DNA from: Parafrankia irregularis
GTDB taxonomy: Bacteria > Actinomycetota > Actinomycetes > Frankiales > Frankiaceae
Direction: 5' to 3'
Assembly: GCF_001536285.1 (NCBI RefSeq)
Contig: NZ_FAOZ01000011.1
Span: 62,001 to 126,000 of the forward strand
Length of the DNA stretch: 64,000 nucleotides
A program made the position numbers and the translations under genes. Under the pieces are notes generated by a model. It saw only the letters and a program-made list of their open reading frames with translations, was not told the origin of the DNA and did no database searches. This document shows, one piece after another, positions 2,480-9,512 of the stretch (position 1 is the first letter of the stretch; every line of letters begins with the position of its first letter).

Positions 2480-4219
2480 ATGACAGCCACGCACGACGCT
2501 CGGTCTCCCTGGGCACCGCCCGACAACCTGCCGGAGCGGACCAGGCCCGAGGCGGCCAGTTCGGAGGGGCCGATGGAGCCGCGGTCGCACGACAACCAGC
2601 AGCCTCCGGGCGGGCCGTCGTCCGGCGCGCCCGCCTCGACGCCCAGCCCCGCCGGGCCTGAGCAGACAGGCGCCTTCCCCGCCGTCCACACTCCGGCTCC
2701 GGTTCCAGCTCCGCCTCCGACCGGTGCGCGCCCCGGCCCGGGCGTCCCAGGTGGCTACTACCCGCCCGGCGACCAGCGGAGCAATCCCTACCCGCAGTCG
2801 GGGGAGCGGCCACCGGTGCACCCGGAGGCCTCCTACCGCCAGCCCTCGCCATGGGCCGCACAACAGGCCTCCACGAGCCAGGGCCAAGGCGAGCAGCGGC
2901 CGGGATACGGCTCCGGCGCCACACCTGGCGGTCCTGGCGGTCCGGGGCAGCAGAGTGCCTGGTGGAGCTCCTCCTGGGGATCGCCGGTCACCCCGCCCGC
3001 GCCCGGTGGGCAGGCGCCCGGATCTCCCGACGGACCTGACGGCTACGGTCGGTTCACACCCGCCACGCCGACGCCGGCGCCTATGCGGCGTCGCCGCCTG
3101 ATAGCCGCAGCCGTGGCACTCGCGCTGGTGTCCGCCGGAATCGGTGGTGGTGTCGGCGCGCTGGTCGCGGGCGACGACTCGCCGGCCGCGGTCGTGTCGA
3201 CCGATTCGGGCCTGCAGCAGGCGACCGGCGGCTCCAGCGGGGTCTCCGAGGCCGCCGACAACACGGTCTCCTCCGCCGCGCAGACCATCCTCCCGAGCGT
3301 CGTGACCATCGCGGAGGAATCCAGCCAGGAGGCCGGAACCGGGTCCGGCACGATCATCCGCTCGGACGGCTACATCCTCACGAACAACCACGTCGTCTCC
3401 GGAGCTGCGAACGGCGGCACCCTCACGGTCACCATGCAGGACGGCCGGACCTTCGACGCGACGATCAAGGCCACCGACCCAAGCGCGGACCTCGCCGTCA
3501 TCAAGATCGACGCCACCAACCTGCCGGCCGCCACCTTCGGGCAGTCCGACGCGCTGCAGGTCGGCGAGCTGGTTGTCGCCGTGGGCAGCCCGCTGGGCCT
3601 CAACGGCACGGTCACCTCAGGAATCATCAGCGCCCTGCACCGCCCCGTGCGCACCGGCGACTCAACTGTTCAGGACCAGACGAACACCGTGCTGGACGCA
3701 ATCCAGACCGACGCGCCCATCAACCCCGGCAACTCGGGTGGCCCGCTGGTAAACAGCAAGGGCCAGATCATCGGGGTGAACACCGCCATCGCGACGGTTG
3801 GCGGCAGTTCCTCGCCCTTCGGTGAGAGCCAGCAGTCCGGCAACATCGGGGTCGGTTTCGCGATTCCGGGCAGCTACGCACAGAAAGTTGCGGCGCAGCT
3901 CATCGACACCGGCACCGCCCGGCACCCCTATTTGGGAGTCAGCGCCAACACCGCGGGTGAGAACACCCGGTCCACGGCGGCAAGCGGCACCGGAGCAAAG
4001 ATCCAGTCGCTGGTCGACGGCGGCCCGGCCGACAAAGCGGGCCTCCGTTCGGGCGATGTCATCACCAAGGTGGGCGATCGGACCATCACGGACATCGATT
4101 CACTGATCGCGGCGGTCAGGTCCCACGACATCGGAAACCAGGTCCAGGTGACGTACCTGCGCGACGGCCAGTCCAACACGGTGACCGTGACACTGCTGGA
4201 ACAACCGCCCAATTCCTGA
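2480..4219 (+). CDS. Membrane-anchored HtrA/DegP-type serine protease with PDZ domain
   Basis: The protein is a trypsin-like periplasmic-side protease of the HtrA family. The first ~200 residues are a Pro/Gly/Gln-rich cytosolic arm. A TM helix follows at about 205-230 (RRRRLIAAAVALALVSAG). The catalytic triad is visible as His in LTNNHVVSG (~303), Asp in SADLAVIKI (~337) and Ser in INPGNSGGPL (~418). A PDZ domain (~480-575, with GPADKAGLRSGDVI) ends the chain. HtrA proteins degrade or process misfolded envelope proteins, with the PDZ controlling substrate access. I chose ATG 2480 for its spacing from the GGGGG tract at 2463-2467; GTG 2471 in the same frame is possible. It is followed after 338 bp by a membrane-tethered sigma-like protein on the same strand. 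Confidence 0.93.
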   Translation: MTATHDARSPWAPPDNLPERTRPEAASSEGPMEPRSHDNQQPPGGPSSGAPASTPSPAGPEQTGAFPAVHTPAPVPAPPPTGARPGPGVPGGYYPPGDQRSNPYPQSGERPPVHPEASYRQPSPWAAQQASTSQGQGEQRPGYGSGATPGGPGGPGQQSAWWSSSWGSPVTPPAPGGQAPGSPDGPDGYGRFTPATPTPAPMRRRRLIAAAVALALVSAGIGGGVGALVAGDDSPAAVVSTDSGLQQATGGSSGVSEAADNTVSSAAQTILPSVVTIAEESSQEAGTGSGTIIRSDGYILTNNHVVSGAANGGTLTVTMQDGRTFDATIKATDPSADLAVIKIDATNLPAATFGQSDALQVGELVVAVGSPLGLNGTVTSGIISALHRPVRTGDSTVQDQTNTVLDAIQTDAPINPGNSGGPLVNSKGQIIGVNTAIATVGGSSSPFGESQQSGNIGVGFAIPGSYAQKVAAQLIDTGTARHPYLGVSANTAGENTRSTAASGTGAKIQSLVDGGPADKAGLRSGDVITKVGDRTITDIDSLIAAVRSHDIGNQVQVTYLRDGQSNTVTVTLLEQPPNS

Positions 4220-4557
4220 GCACCGGGCGGGCGACGGTTTTGGGAAACACCCGGCGGTTTCCGCACCAGCCACCAGGACCACGCCACGCCGGCGATGCCG
4301 GCGCGGATGTGTCGAAGATGCCTTCGTATAAGCTTGCTTCGGTGTCCGATGAAGGGGGATACGGCACCATGTTCAGCGTCAAGCTGACCATGGTGTCGAG
4401 GTGACGACAAAAAATCTTCACAACCTTCACCCCGGCCAGATCAGGCACCTCCTACTATTGAGCCTGCCTGACCGGTGACCAGGCCTGGCGCCACATTGGT
4501 CGCCAAACCTGGTCCCGGCGCCGAGACCAGGAACGTCGTCCCGGGGAGTTGCAGCTG
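4220..4557. other. 338-bp gap between protease and sigma-like gene
   Basis: No coding frame is supported. An A/T-richer part at 4405-4460 (AAAAAATCTTCACAACC and later TACTATTG) probably holds the promoter of the downstream gene, but -35/-10 spacing does not fit a standard housekeeping promoter. The next gene has GGGGAG at 4543-4548. Confidence 0.3.
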
Positions 4558-6012
4558 ATGAACGACGACGCGGACCTGGTGGCCCGTGTTCGGCGTGGTG
4601 ATCGTCAGGCTTTCAACGATCTCTACAACCGCTACGCCGACGACGTCTTCTCGATGTGCCTGCTGATCCTCGGCGACCCGACGGTCGCCAGGGCGGCGGC
4701 CGGAACCGCGTTCGCCCTGGTGGCTCGAACGCGGTTGAATCCCCTCTCCGATCCGACCCGCCTGCGCCCCTGGCTCCTCGAGCTCGCGCGCGGCAGCGCG
4801 CTGGCCTGGTCCGGCTCGCCGCAGGCCCGCAGCGTCCCGGTTCCGCACGGCGTCTCGCCGGAGGAGCTGCTGGACGGTGCCATCGTGCCGGCGCCGACCA
4901 GCCTGCGAACCGGCCTGCAACGCACCTTCGACCGCGCGGCTGTCGCCGCCGCGGCCGCCGCGAACCGGCGGGCCGCGGAGCGCGCCGGCACCGCTGGTCC
5001 TGCTGGTTCCGCCCGAGGCGACGAAGCCACCGTCACCCCGCTCCCCGGCGCGGCAATCCCCGGAAACGCCCCGGCCTTCGGCGGCGCGCCGGCAGGTGCG
5101 CCCCCCGACCCTCGGGTCGCCTTCACCGCCTCTGGCGGCGGGAACGGCGTGGGCGTCCGCGCCGTCGGGCCCGAGGACGCCGTCACACTCGTCTCCCCCT
5201 CCACCGGGCTGCCGGCGGGGCAGCTCGACGAGCAGGCCACACCGCCAGGTGACCGTCCCGACGACGGGTCGGCGACCGGCCTGCCGCTGCTGGCCCTCGA
5301 CCGGGCCCTGGCAGGCTCGAACGCCCGCGGCAACGGATTCTCCGACTTCCGGGCTCGGCCGACCATCGCGGTGGCGGCCGCGCTGGCAGTGGCCGTGGCC
5401 GGGCTCACCGCCGTCATCTCCTGGCCTACCGGGCGCGCCGAGCTGGTGGCCGACGCGGGCACCGGCATGGTGGCGATCACTCCGACGCTCCCCGCCGGCG
5501 CAGGCACACTGCCGACCGCGGCCCAACCGCCGGTCGTGCCGGTGGACGCGCCGCCCTCGCCGACGGTGGCAGGCGCCTACACGAGCCGCCCCGCCACCTC
5601 ACGCCCGACGCAGATCGTCCGTGAGGTCGACGCGCCGAAGCCCTACACCCCGCCGCCGTCGAGGCCCGCACCGGCGCCCACGCCGCCGGCCACTGTTCAG
5701 CCACCGGCGCCCACCCCGGCGCCGCCCACCAGCCAGCCGACCGTGCCGGCCACCGTGGTGCCGACGACACCGCCGGCGCAGACACCCACCGGCCCGTCGT
5801 CGACCACGCCGCCTGACGGCAACGCGCCGACGCCCACGACGGTGCCACCGACGACGACGCACACCACGCCGACGGCCCCGCCGACCTCGGATCCGTCCAC
5901 GCCGACGACCGGGGCACCGACGACTTCGACGCCGTCGTCGTCGCCCACGAGCAGCGATACGAACCGGTTCCCGTTCCCCCTGCCCTGGGCGACCAGTCCG
6001 GTTCCCGTCTGA
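4558..6012 (+). CDS. Membrane-tethered protein with sigma-70 region-2-like N-terminus and Pro/Thr-rich exterior
   Basis: Residues ~1-85 resemble ECF sigma region 2 (LVARVRRGDRQAFNDLYNRY, later RLRPWLLELARGSAL), but no sigma region 4 follows. Instead there is an Ala/Gly/Pro-rich linker of ~180 residues, one TM helix at about 269-291 (TIAVAAALAVAVAGLTAVI) and ~190 extracytoplasmic residues dominated by Pro, Thr and Ser. The acidic/aromatic residues that normally follow helix 2.2 are replaced by small residues (ARAAAGTAFALVA), so promoter recognition is doubtful. ATG 4558 sits 9 nt after GGGGAG; an upstream in-frame TTG 4549 overlaps that site too closely. It may act as an anti-sigma-like or polymerase-binding membrane sensor. 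It could also be a degenerate sigma factor. Confidence 0.75.
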   Translation: MNDDADLVARVRRGDRQAFNDLYNRYADDVFSMCLLILGDPTVARAAAGTAFALVARTRLNPLSDPTRLRPWLLELARGSALAWSGSPQARSVPVPHGVSPEELLDGAIVPAPTSLRTGLQRTFDRAAVAAAAAANRRAAERAGTAGPAGSARGDEATVTPLPGAAIPGNAPAFGGAPAGAPPDPRVAFTASGGGNGVGVRAVGPEDAVTLVSPSTGLPAGQLDEQATPPGDRPDDGSATGLPLLALDRALAGSNARGNGFSDFRARPTIAVAAALAVAVAGLTAVISWPTGRAELVADAGTGMVAITPTLPAGAGTLPTAAQPPVVPVDAPPSPTVAGAYTSRPATSRPTQIVREVDAPKPYTPPPSRPAPAPTPPATVQPPAPTPAPPTSQPTVPATVVPTTPPAQTPTGPSSTTPPDGNAPTPTTVPPTTTHTTPTAPPTSDPSTPTTGAPTTSTPSSSPTSSDTNRFPFPLPWATSPVPV

Positions 6013-6104
6013 CCCATCCGGTCGAGGTCCGGCCCGGTCTCGTCGCGGGCGCCGGACCTCCGAGCGCCCGGTAGCCCGGTAGCCCGGTAGCCGGTTTGGC
6101 GAGT

Positions 6105-6158
6105 CGCAAGAGTGAAGGATGTTGGTCATTCCGACGACCAGAATCCTTCACTCTTGCG
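6105..6158. repeat. Long palindromic element, probable bidirectional terminator (family member 1)
   Basis: Arms of 16 bp (6105-6120 and 6143-6158) are perfectly complementary: CGCAAGAGTGAAGGAT against ATCCTTCACTCTTGCG. The interior (6123-6140) is a second, imperfect palindrome starting TGGTC and ending GACCA. It lies between two convergent genes, as a two-way terminator would, but has no T tract. Related elements occur at 16436-16584 and 37942-37993. The rest of the 6013-6472 gap shows only short GTAGCCCG repeats at 6070-6090 and no gene. Confidence 0.7.
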
Positions 6159-6472
6159 CGTCACCAGGCGACCCTTCGCCCCTTTTGCCCCTCTTGAGAG
6201 GGAATTGCTGGTGCCGCGCGGCGGTGCGGGATCCCTGGTAGCCGGCCGTACGGGTGGGGTTCGCATTCCGTCGGCACGGCTCCGCCAGGCCCATGCTGGT
6301 GGCCCGGATCCGCTGGTAGCCCGGATCCGCCGCGTCTCAGGATTCTGCTACGGGCTCCTCCGGCGACCACGATCCTGAGATCCTGTTCGGCAGCATTGGC
6401 AGCATTGGCAGCCCGGAGCTGTCGACCGCCGGCCCGCGCCCCGGCCTGCCTCAGCGCACCCTGTGGAAGGCT

Positions 6473-8554
6473 TCAGCGCACCCTGTAGAAGACCGTCGTC
6501 ACGTACTGGTCGAAATCGTTGACGCGCAGGTAGAGGCGTAGCTGCCACTGGCCCGGCAGAGGCACTCCGACCCCTTCGGCGACGGCCTGGCCGTCCGCGA
6601 CCCTCACCAGTGGAACGTCCAGGGGCCCGACGCCCGCCGCCGGCAGGCTCAGCTCGCCCTTGGCCTCGACCAGCCGCTGCGGCCGGCCCTGCGGGTCATA
6701 GGTATGGATGCGGATGGTTTCCAGGCCGGTCCTGGTGGGCGCGATCTCGACGTCGACGGTCATCGGGCCGGCGATCGCCGTCCTGGAGAACGGCGGCGCG
6801 TACGACTCCCGACCGGGAATGGTGTTCACGAGGATCGCGGTGACGGTGAGAACGGCGACGCCGACGATCATCTCGAAGATCACGCCTCGACGCAGCCCGG
6901 CGATGGCGAGCGAGGTGACAGCCTGATTCGGTGCCGTCTGATTCGGCGCCGCCTGACTCGAAGGCGGCTGTTCTGAAGCCGGCTGTTCCGAACCAGCCGG
7001 GAAGTGGCGGTGCACCCAGCGCTGGGCCAGCAGGCCCAGGCCCAGCGCACCGAGGACGAACCAGAGCTTGTACAGCAGAAGACGCCCGTACGTCGTGCCG
7101 AACAGTGCTCCGAAGGCACCGATCTCCCGCAGGGTCTGGAAGATCCCGGTCAGCACGATCACGGCGACCGCGACCATCGCGGTCCTGGACCATCGGGGCA
7201 ACACCCGGGCCATCTCGTCGGCCCAGCCGGCCTCGACGGGCTCGCCATCGCCCAGCCCGTCGAGGCCGTAGAGCTTGTTGAGGCCCGGTAGCTCCATGGA
7301 ACCGGCCGCCGAAACGGCTTCCGCACTCGCACTCGTGCCCGCGACGGCCCCCGTGCCCCGGCCGGACGAGACCGCGGCCGGATCCGCGGGGCTGGCGAAC
7401 GAGCCGGGACCCCGGGGGGAGCCCTCGGCGCCGCCGGTGCCGGTGCCGGTGTGACGCGGCCTGGGCCGTCCGAGCAGTGACAGCCCGAGAACGCACAGGC
7501 CGCCGAGCCAGATCGCCATCGCCGTGGTGTGCAGCGTCATCGAGGCGGTCGCCAGCCAGACCAGCCCGCCCGCGCTCGCGTGACCGATCATCGCCATGGT
7601 GGTCGCGAGCACCAGCCCCAGCCCGGCAAGCTCGACCAGCCCTCGCCGGCCCGGCCCGGTCGGCTGGTGGCCAGCGCCGCCGCCCTCACCGCCGCCCTCG
7701 CCGGCAGGCTGCCGCACCCGGCGCAGCAGCGGGACGGCGAGCAGCAGCGCCAACATGCGGATCGCCAGGAGCTGGCCGTAACGATCCTCCAGGGTCACCG
7801 CGATCTGATCGGCGTCCAGGACGGAGGTGATTCCCTCACCCGACGAATACGGCCCCTGAAGCAGCAGCATGCCGATCGCACCGAACAGGCTGAGCAGCCA
7901 GCCGGCGGCGATCAGCCGGACCGGGCCGCGGCGGCGCGCACCGGCCGGCCAGAGCACCGTCAGGAAGAAGGTGGCACCGATCAGCAGGGCCGCGCCGGCG
8001 AAGGTCACCAGCCGGGCCGCGCCCAGCGCCACGCCGACCGCTCGTGATCCGCCGCCGCCCGAGGGCAGCGCCGCGGCCGCCCCGGCGTCGGGCGGCCCGC
8101 CGATGCCGAAGGCGAACGCGCCACCGACCGGATGACTGTCCGCGGAGACCACACGCCAGCTCACAACGTAGGTTCCCGTGCCGAGGCCCGAGCGCAGCGC
8201 GATCGTCACCTCCGACGCCGAGGAGCCGTTCTTCGCCTCACCATCGTCAGCCCGGGCGCCGGTGGCGTCGAGGACGCGAATCGCGTCGGACTTGACCGAC
8301 ACGGCTTCGCTGAAGGTCAACGTCACCCTGGCCGGGGCCTGATCGAGGGCCGCGCCGCCGACCGGGTCGCTGCGCTCCAGCACGGCATGGGCCGACGCCG
8401 GCAGCGCCGTGCCCAGCAGCGCGACGGCGACGATCCCCACGACCGTGAGCACCCGCCGAAGCACGCCGGACAACCCGCCCCCGCCCCCGCCCGGGCTGGG
8501 GCTACGGCGCGGGTGCGTGCGGTGGTCGCTGGCGCATCGATCGGGTCCGGTCAT
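6473..8554 (-). CDS. CopC-CopD fusion, copper resistance/uptake membrane protein
   Basis: The chain joins a periplasmic CopC domain to a polytopic CopD domain. A signal segment at ~31-55 ends LPASA, leaving His56 as the mature N-terminus (HAVLERSDP). That is the classic CopC Cu(II) ligand, and SADSHPVGGAFAF supplies the second His. About eight or nine hydrophobic helices follow from ~165, interrupted by a Gly/Ser/Pro-rich loop near residues 360-420. The last ~120 residues form an extracytoplasmic beta-rich domain. CopC/CopD proteins bind copper outside the membrane and move it inwards or buffer it. The neighbours (YcnI, copper amine oxidase) fit a copper theme. The gene ends facing the sigma-like gene across the palindrome at 6105-6158. 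Confidence 0.92.
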   Translation of the reverse strand: MTGPDRCASDHRTHPRRSPSPGGGGGGLSGVLRRVLTVVGIVAVALLGTALPASAHAVLERSDPVGGAALDQAPARVTLTFSEAVSVKSDAIRVLDATGARADDGEAKNGSSASEVTIALRSGLGTGTYVVSWRVVSADSHPVGGAFAFGIGGPPDAGAAAALPSGGGGSRAVGVALGAARLVTFAGAALLIGATFFLTVLWPAGARRRGPVRLIAAGWLLSLFGAIGMLLLQGPYSSGEGITSVLDADQIAVTLEDRYGQLLAIRMLALLLAVPLLRRVRQPAGEGGGEGGGAGHQPTGPGRRGLVELAGLGLVLATTMAMIGHASAGGLVWLATASMTLHTTAMAIWLGGLCVLGLSLLGRPRPRHTGTGTGGAEGSPRGPGSFASPADPAAVSSGRGTGAVAGTSASAEAVSAAGSMELPGLNKLYGLDGLGDGEPVEAGWADEMARVLPRWSRTAMVAVAVIVLTGIFQTLREIGAFGALFGTTYGRLLLYKLWFVLGALGLGLLAQRWVHRHFPAGSEQPASEQPPSSQAAPNQTAPNQAVTSLAIAGLRRGVIFEMIVGVAVLTVTAILVNTIPGRESYAPPFSRTAIAGPMTVDVEIAPTRTGLETIRIHTYDPQGRPQRLVEAKGELSLPAAGVGPLDVPLVRVADGQAVAEGVGVPLPGQWQLRLYLRVNDFDQYVTTVFYRVR

Positions 8555-8639
8555 GAGGTTTCCGTTCTGAGTGATCTCCGGAGCGGGTGCCCCCGGAGCG
8601 GGTGCCCCTGGCGCCGGTGGCCGGGGGCACCCCAGGTGA

Positions 8640-9410
8640 TCAGGCCCGCCGACGGGTGCTGATCAGCGCGAACGCGCCTGCGGCCAGACCGAGCGCTCCC
8701 AGCACGAGACCGGTGATCCCGAGCGCGCGTGCCGTGCCGTCCGATGTCGACGCCGACGCCGACGCCGATTCGTCGCCCGCCGCCGCGGAGTTCCCGGTGC
8801 CGGCATCCGCGTGCTCGTCGGCGGCACCGTCGTCATGGTCGCTGTCCGAAGCCGCGGCCGCGGTCAGGGTGACGGCCGGTGCCGGGTGGTCCGGCTCGTC
8901 CGTGCCAGGCTTGGCCACGTCGATCCAGCGGACGATCTCGCCGTCGGAGTAGGTCTGCAACGTCTTGAAGACCACCTGGTCGGCGTCGTCCGGCAGCGGG
9001 CCGGCTGAGACGTTGAAGGTGTCGAACTCGCCGGGCCTGATCCCGGCACCGTTCTCGGCTGTCCAGGTGATCTGCGTGACGACCTCGGTGATCTGCGTTC
9101 CGTGAGCGGTGAGCGGCTTCGCCGGCGCGCCCTTGGTCACCTTGTAGGTCCAGCCGGGCTTGGGCTGGACCGTCACCGAGGCGATCGGCGCGTCGGCTGG
9201 GAACTGCACGTCGAGCGCCGTGGTCGACGCGGTGTCGCTCTCGGTCGGAACCTTGAACGTCAGGGTGGTGTAGGCACCCTTGGCCGCCTCGGCCGGAGCG
9301 ACGGTGACATGCGCGGACGCCGGAAGGGCCAGCGCGATGCTGCCTGCCGCGGCGGCGAGCGTGCACAGCGCGCCCCGACGGAGGCGAACTGCGCGGGTGG
9401 TGCGAGACAT
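8640..9410 (-). CDS. YcnI/DUF1775-family copper-binding membrane protein
   Basis: A signal peptide ends LPASA, so the mature protein begins with His (HVTVAPAEA). In YcnI proteins the N-terminal His and a conserved Trp form a copper site; WTYKV and WTAEN are candidate Trp positions here. The DUF1775 beta-sandwich covers roughly 34-170. An Asp/His/Glu-rich then Ser/Ala-rich linker follows, and a C-terminal TM helix ends in RRRA (LGALGLAAGAFALISTRRRA). ATG 9410 was chosen because AGGAGG lies just upstream (9415-9420); the longer frame to 9470 lacks such a site. It is 85 bp upstream of copCD on the same strand, probably one operon: a surface chaperone feeding the CopCD protein. Confidence 0.92.
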   Translation of the reverse strand: MSRTTRAVRLRRGALCTLAAAAGSIALALPASAHVTVAPAEAAKGAYTTLTFKVPTESDTASTTALDVQFPADAPIASVTVQPKPGWTYKVTKGAPAKPLTAHGTQITEVVTQITWTAENGAGIRPGEFDTFNVSAGPLPDDADQVVFKTLQTYSDGEIVRWIDVAKPGTDEPDHPAPAVTLTAAAASDSDHDDGAADEHADAGTGNSAAAGDESASASASTSDGTARALGITGLVLGALGLAAGAFALISTRRRA

Positions 9411-9512
9411 GGGACCTCCTCGAGGACCAGGCTGGTCCTCACGGGTGATCGGACTGGTTGACCCGAGCACCAGGGCCGTGGCACGGCGCGACAGACCGGC
9501 CCGTGCAGCGCG

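Follow-up and report, generated by a model that had tools for sequence, protein, structure and literature searches.

Sigma factors of the ECF48, ECF52, and ECF53 groups of Actinobacteria are tethered by a transmembrane (TM) segment of their own and carry a proline-rich exterior, as described in PMC8999054. SCO4117 is an example of this fused layout (PMC5826349), and proteolytic activation has been predicted for sigmas of the ECF48/52/53 type (PMC8999054, PMC5826349). In class I anti-sigma factors, helix 4 binds sigma regions 2.1/2.2, whereas helices 1 and 3 contact the sigma4 domain; the main function of regions 2.1/2.2 is given in the same source as binding of the β′ clamp helices (PMC7406223). 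A sigma factor made of two polypeptides, SigO-RsoA, is listed in PMC10141391. Among HtrA proteases, DegS is activated by OMP C-termini bound to its PDZ domain, and in DegP the C-terminal portion of the substrate binds PDZ1 (PMC11642142).

The 64,000-nucleotide window of Parafrankia irregularis DNA analyzed here contains a gene (4558..6012, + strand; ATG start, 484 amino acids) for a protein that combines a sigma region 2 (sigma2) domain, a segment corresponding to anti-sigma helix 4, a TM helix, and an exterior rich in Pro, Thr, and Ser (P/T/S). The original prediction presented a sigma-like module tethered in the membrane as a new layout, but that layout is already known from ECF48/52/53 (PMC8999054) and SCO4117 (PMC5826349). 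Among known systems, the fused ECF sigmas of Actinobacteria come closest to this family; for a membrane protein with sigma2 only, we found no description in the open-licence literature. What goes beyond the first reading is the retained anti-sigma helix-4 segment together with the conserved hydrophobic C-terminus. Our leading explanation, on which we consider the case evenly balanced, is that a sigma/anti-sigma fusion is no longer a sigma factor and has turned into the partner of a dedicated HtrA.

Protein layout and the sigma2 domain

All parts of the protein are encoded on the + strand, and the ATG is preceded by a Shine-Dalgarno-like GGGGAG. The sigma2 fold, delimited by profiles, models, fold matches, and dN/dS, occupies residues 1-85 (4558..4812) and includes the region 2.2 helix (residues 41-58 with A46, G49, and T50; 4678..4731), which was placed by alignment and model. 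It is followed by the helix-4 segment (residues 97-134; 4846..4959), a cytoplasmic linker that is unconserved by dN/dS (residues 136-266; 4963..5355), a single TM helix (residues 269-287; 5362..5418; hydropathy 2.42 at 269), and the exterior (residues 293-484; 5434..6009), for which no Pfam domain was found. The exterior comprises 192 residues, 110 of them P/T/S (57%), confirming the TM helix and the P/T/S exterior of about 190 residues that had been read from the sequence. The protein ends in PVPV (5998..6009), a putative PDZ ligand of the form x-phi-x-phi-COOH. An inverted repeat with 31-nt arms, 84% complementary and 8 nt apart, lies 3′ of the gene (6097..6166) and is not listed by the terminator scan, which needs a T run. 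No promoter or terminator consensus was found at 4150-6500, a weak test in GC-rich DNA.

Residues 2-82 match NCBIfam models of ECF sigma factors (best E = 1.2e-6), with every match falling well short of the curated cut-off. A Pfam scan of the 484-amino-acid protein gave no match at E ≤ 1, and only one of 23 family members matched Pfam Sigma70_r2, at E = 0.053, so the domain is to be considered diverged. AlphaFold2 modeling of residues 1-135 yielded a mean pLDDT of 89.4 and a pTM of 0.85 with a 23-row alignment and a weaker model (77.9 and 0.77, respectively) with an 8-row alignment; with each alignment, part of the set of five models received poor scores. Foldseek searches of the PDB with either model returned no match at E ≤ 0.001, and the top rows for both were ECF sigma factors (4lup_A, TM-score 0.82 by target, for one of the models). 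VIA-align superimposed residues 1-91 on 1or7_A (88 residues at an rmsd of 2.0 Å; Z = 10.6), compared with Z ≤ 3.9 for non-sigma rows; PhyR (9cb6_C) was a weak fold match (Z = 5.2). The NCBIfam matches, the AlphaFold2 models, and the 1or7_A superposition identify the N-terminus as ECF sigma region 2, in line with the original prediction and with the HMM search and structure prediction that it had proposed as checks. The protein thus has the sigma2 domain that characterizes ECF sigma factors, though diverged beyond Pfam.

Distribution and selection

A profile match at E ≤ 1e-5 is present in 33 of the 35 Frankiaceae genomes, and a search at the order level returned the same 35 genomes. The gene itself was assigned to 32 of them, in which homologs retain the sigma2 domain, as the sigma reading demanded, and the 32 loci were read. 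No copy was counted for G002, G014, or G016 (63% complete); the match in G002 was set aside because it covers residues 4-78 only (E = 1.9e-6). Rechecking these three with the family profile gave much weaker matches only, those in G002 being at E = 3.4e-10 or weaker vs 5e-57 or better in family members.

We calculated dN/dS part by part in 12 chosen pairs: sigma2, 0.00-0.08; residues 86-135, 0.02-0.26; linker, 0.34-0.78; TM stretch, which is short, 0.00-0.75; and exterior, 0.46-0.79. Purifying selection acts strongly on the cytoplasmic module, and the exterior is unconserved in sequence. The possibility of a chance open reading frame was rejected given this selection and the presence of the gene in 32 of 35 genomes. 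We also rejected a decaying, functionless remnant of an ECF fusion, to which we assign next to no probability: the missing sigma4, the missing zinc finger, and the replaced core-contact motif described below would fit decay, but the breadth of distribution argues against it and the sigma2 values of 0.00-0.08 contradict it.

Missing sigma4 and zinc finger, and a replaced core-contact motif

With a cut-off of E ≤ 1e-8, a class-wide profile search produced matches in 83 of 393 genomes. Outside the family, 20 loci were fetched and 22 matches, mostly the best-scoring ones, were read. Five of these are ordinary ECFs, and 17, chosen by the HxxxCxxC pattern, are long proteins with a TM segment and an exterior, which we denote full-length relatives. 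Their layout is sigma2-sigma4-zinc finger-TM-exterior; one of them matches Pfam Sigma70_r2 at 2.3e-14 and, weakly, Sigma70_r4_2 at 0.041. Two different fused sigma/anti-sigma genes occur in tandem in G299 and G081 (L104, L106), with starts about 1.6-1.7 kb apart, and G014, one of the Frankiaceae genomes counted as lacking the short form, encodes a full-length fused sigma/anti-sigma (L109, 2815-4428) near a gene that, by sequence impression, is GroEL-like.

A profile was built from the residues that separate sigma2 from the zinc finger in the 17 relatives. It recovers all five ordinary ECFs, which had been left out of its building (E = 1.4e-14 to 3.5e-6), and these residues are therefore sigma4. 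None of the 32 family proteins, two of which are cut by contig ends, matches the profile at E ≤ 1, consistent with the absence of region 4 noted from the sequence at the outset. The zinc-finger pattern HxxxCxx[CH] is likewise found in none of the 32 proteins, which hold one or two Cys each. Hence, sigma4 and the zinc finger are absent together in the family and present together in the full-length relatives. With respect to the ECF48/52/53 layout, the 484-amino-acid protein possesses the TM segment and the long C-terminal extension, and the zinc-finger anti-sigma domain (HxxxCxxC) is lacking in 32 of 32 family proteins.

Region 2.2 is altered as well. Positions 46/49/50 are A/G/T in all 22 main-group rows (A..GT), whereas the full-length relatives have D (94%), Q (71%), and D (88%) there (D..QD); the most divergent member, from G015, has T, Q, and T, that is, the Q of region 2.2 is retained. 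The basic helix 2.4 (about ARNEALRRLR) is changed to ARGSALAWSGS in the family, with the basic residues gone. The D..QE of region 2.2 is presumably among the sigma residues that contact the β′ coiled-coil. As reported in PMC6411747, residues making this contact are conserved among sigma factors. The family thus lacks two features of sigma factors, the sigma4 domain and the region 2.2 core-contact motif. With that motif replaced and helix 2.4 stripped of its basic residues, the sigma2 module is unlikely to bind RNA polymerase as a sigma factor.

These changes bear directly on the proposal that a surface signal is passed to polymerase through the tethered module, either alone or with region 4 supplied by a second polypeptide. 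The preserved sigma2 fold, the precedent of the two-polypeptide SigO-RsoA (PMC10141391), and the region 2.2 Q of the divergent G015 protein are compatible with this proposal. It is opposed by the A/G/T of the main group and the loss of the helix 2.4 basic residues, set against the conservation of β′ coiled-coil contacts among sigmas (PMC6411747), and by a search for a split-sigma partner, in which the sigma4 profile found nothing at E ≤ 1e-3 when run against the 32 family loci in all six frames (4289 ORFs). We find transfer to polymerase unsupported and regard it as very doubtful.

A retained segment related to anti-sigma helix 4

In an hhalign comparison, the family segment after residue 97 aligned with the post-zinc-finger segment of the 17 full-length relatives with a score of 26.4 (E = 5.7e-5, probability 66%), compared with a mean of 9.6 (sd 2.0, maximum 15.7) in 100 column shuffles. 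The retained segment, with the pattern HGVSPEELL..VPAP.SLR..L.RTFDRA at residues 97-134, corresponds to the H3-H4 linker and helix 4 of the fused anti-sigma domains. The post-zinc-finger part of the relatives aligns with RsiW, end included, at E = 0.14, which is weak alone; the sole other row of this search was an unrelated protein (E = 1.5). When nine such segments were tested, all nine matched the RsrA model (best 6.3e-5, below the curated cut-off and weak alone), eight the general anti-sigma model, and four the zf-HC2 model of Pfam. Both AlphaFold2 models contain a helix at residues 114-134, and the pTM and the homology suggest that it is packed on sigma2. Taken with the absence of sigma4 and the zinc finger and with the contacts described in PMC7406223, the helix-4 homology indicates that the family combines sigma2 with the helix covering it and lacks both sigma4 and the anti-sigma part that would pair with sigma4.

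In the sigma2 tree, which is not decisive (114 columns, long branches), the family and the fused group each form one clade and are not nested; holding the two groups together was not rejected by the AU test (p = 0.111). Descent from an ECF52-like fusion is therefore not proven, the helix-4 homology speaking for it and the sigma2 tree showing no nesting.

The sigma-like domain of PhyR binds NepR, freeing an ECF sigma. The Frankia protein could act as a comparable sigma mimic if its sigma2 part, cleaved by HtrA, bound a free anti-sigma and so released a real ECF sigma. Such a role would fit the strong conservation of sigma2, the weak fold match to PhyR, and the replacement of the core-contact motif in a fold that keeps the 2.1/2.2 face bound by helix 4 of anti-sigmas; however, the protein's own helix-4 segment would occupy that very face, and a cognate anti-sigma was not identified. 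We consider the mimic rather unlikely. It is a special case of the leading explanation, so the probabilities that we attach to that explanation and to its rivals overlap.

The HtrA neighbor and the hydrophobic C-terminus

An HtrA-type protease is encoded 338 bp upstream of the sigma2 gene (2480..4219, + strand). It has an N-terminal TM segment, a trypsin domain, and one PDZ domain (residues 483-572 by domain match; 3926..4195, + strand), and by its H, D, and S motifs and its PDZ it qualifies as an HtrA, as first read. We take YLGV of this PDZ to lie at the expected position of the carboxylate-binding loop. All 32 family loci carry HtrA on the upstream side of the sigma2 gene, and GNSGG is present in all 32 proteases (GNSGGP in 31, GNSGGA in G015). 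The gap between the two genes is 263-805 bp in 31 loci and 2497 bp in G015, which we count against the leading explanation. In G015 (L070, upstream of 8292), a secreted protease of 659 residues, sedolisin-like by sequence impression, is encoded between the two genes on the same strand.

Near the full-length relatives, within the few kilobases fetched, HtrA was found in none of 15 loci. Conversely, none of 569 ORFs from 20 other HtrA loci (18 outside Frankiaceae and two other Frankiaceae copies, in G014 and G024; some cut by contig ends) matched the family profile at E = 0.01, and in the control the profile found 32 of 32 family proteins. Within these 20 loci, the pairing of the sigma2 gene with HtrA looks lineage-specific. 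Several of the 20 HtrA genes adjoin, by sequence impression, TatB or a response regulator. In the window, genes resembling CopC/CopD and YcnI (sequence impression) occupy 6473-9470 on the - strand; the CopC/CopD-like gene has matches in 26 of the 32 family loci, with varying orientation and spacing.

The final residue is V/I/L/M/F in 28 of the 30 complete family proteins and A in the other two (L049 and L050, cut by contig ends, were dropped from the 32; the 30 C-termini are related, not independent, so a binomial figure overstates the pattern), and position -3 belongs to the same class in 16. Further inside the same tails, the share of these residues is 7.4%. As controls, such a final residue occurs in none of the 17 full-length relatives, in 7 of 44 window genes (the sigma2 gene among them), in 40 of 296 neighboring genes, many of them orthologs and all predicted by a simple GC rule, and in none of nine neighbors with P/T/S tails. 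Differing endings keep the hydrophobic class (PVPV, PVSV, PIFI, TANL/I/M, TLIL, LTSV). A hydrophobic free C-terminus amid a varying tail is how a PDZ ligand behaves. The family has the free hydrophobic terminal residue of such ligands, and the C-terminus looks like a ligand for the PDZ of the adjoining HtrA, which is likewise located on the outside, binding itself being predicted.

The protease cannot be identified from the end pattern alone, and the C-terminus could instead signal to a tail-specific protease of the Prc/CtpA type, given that Prc and RseP process IutY, which is also a fused ECF (PMC8999054). The presence of HtrA upstream in every family locus argues against this alternative, which we view as distinctly improbable. 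The same linkage, along with the C-terminal pattern, would also be expected if the protein were chiefly a regulator or anchor of HtrA, with the tail as a built-in PDZ ligand setting protease activity and sigma2 as a cytoplasmic docking domain; but most of the conservation resides in residues 1-135 rather than in the tail, and we hold this view to be somewhat unlikely.

Proposed mechanism and implications

The conversion of a sigma/anti-sigma fusion into an HtrA partner could work as follows. Helix 4 would cover sigma2 in cis, giving a closed two-part cytoplasmic module, and the exterior C-terminus would dock in the HtrA PDZ. Docking could lead to cleavage of the exterior, comparable to the initial cut of RseA by DegS, and a site-2 protease would then cut the TM segment; alternatively, docking might activate HtrA itself. 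Once released or rearranged, the sigma2-helix-4 module would bind a partner instead of directing RNA polymerase. In this model, the protein is an HtrA-docked membrane module, probably cleaved, with an output other than ordinary sigma activity. A more specific version, a self-docking surface receptor that carries its own PDZ ligand and, upon HtrA cleavage, yields a sigma2-helix-4 mimic that titrates an anti-sigma or some other partner of sigma2, strikes us as unlikely; if true, it would mean that a sigma/anti-sigma pair had become a signal carrier that does not transcribe.

Overall, the earlier reading stands as to the sigma2 domain, the lack of region 4, the TM helix, the exterior, the HtrA, and conservation, falls as to the novelty of the layout, and is unsupported as to the transfer to polymerase. 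The family separates the contact between sigma2 and anti-sigma helix 4 from the ability to transcribe, which are usually joined in ECF signaling, and a sigma-like annotation in Frankia need not denote a sigma factor. If the C-terminus is an HtrA ligand, a single residue would offer a simple genetic handle on partner choice by an actinobacterial HtrA.

Comparison with known systems

In SigO-RsoA (PMC10141391), as in the Frankia protein, a sigma region forms a separate polypeptide, but there the partner is known, whereas none was found for the Frankia protein, which also has a TM segment. With ECF52/48/53 (SCO4117), the family shares the N-terminal sigma2, the helix-4-like segment, the TM helix, the Pro-rich exterior, and the actinobacterial host; it differs in lacking sigma4 and the zinc finger, in the replaced residues of regions 2.2 and 2.4, and in having HtrA next door, a hydrophobic C-terminus, and an exterior without a Pfam match. 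To the part of the class I anti-sigmas RsiW and RsrA that follows the zinc finger, the family's segment corresponds, but the zinc-finger part and its ligands are missing. The DegS-RseA-sigmaE system offers a membrane-anchored HtrA with a single PDZ (DegS: PMC11642142) and a single-TM partner whose cytoplasmic part contains an anti-sigma helix-4 segment. Unlike in that system, the Frankia loci fetched have no separate sigma4-bearing gene, sigma2 is present in cis and seems incapable of core binding, and the partner would supply the PDZ ligand with its own C-terminus, cleavage being predicted. By analogy, the family may function most like the substrate side of the DegS-RseA pathway, with a self-contained sigma2-helix-4 module.
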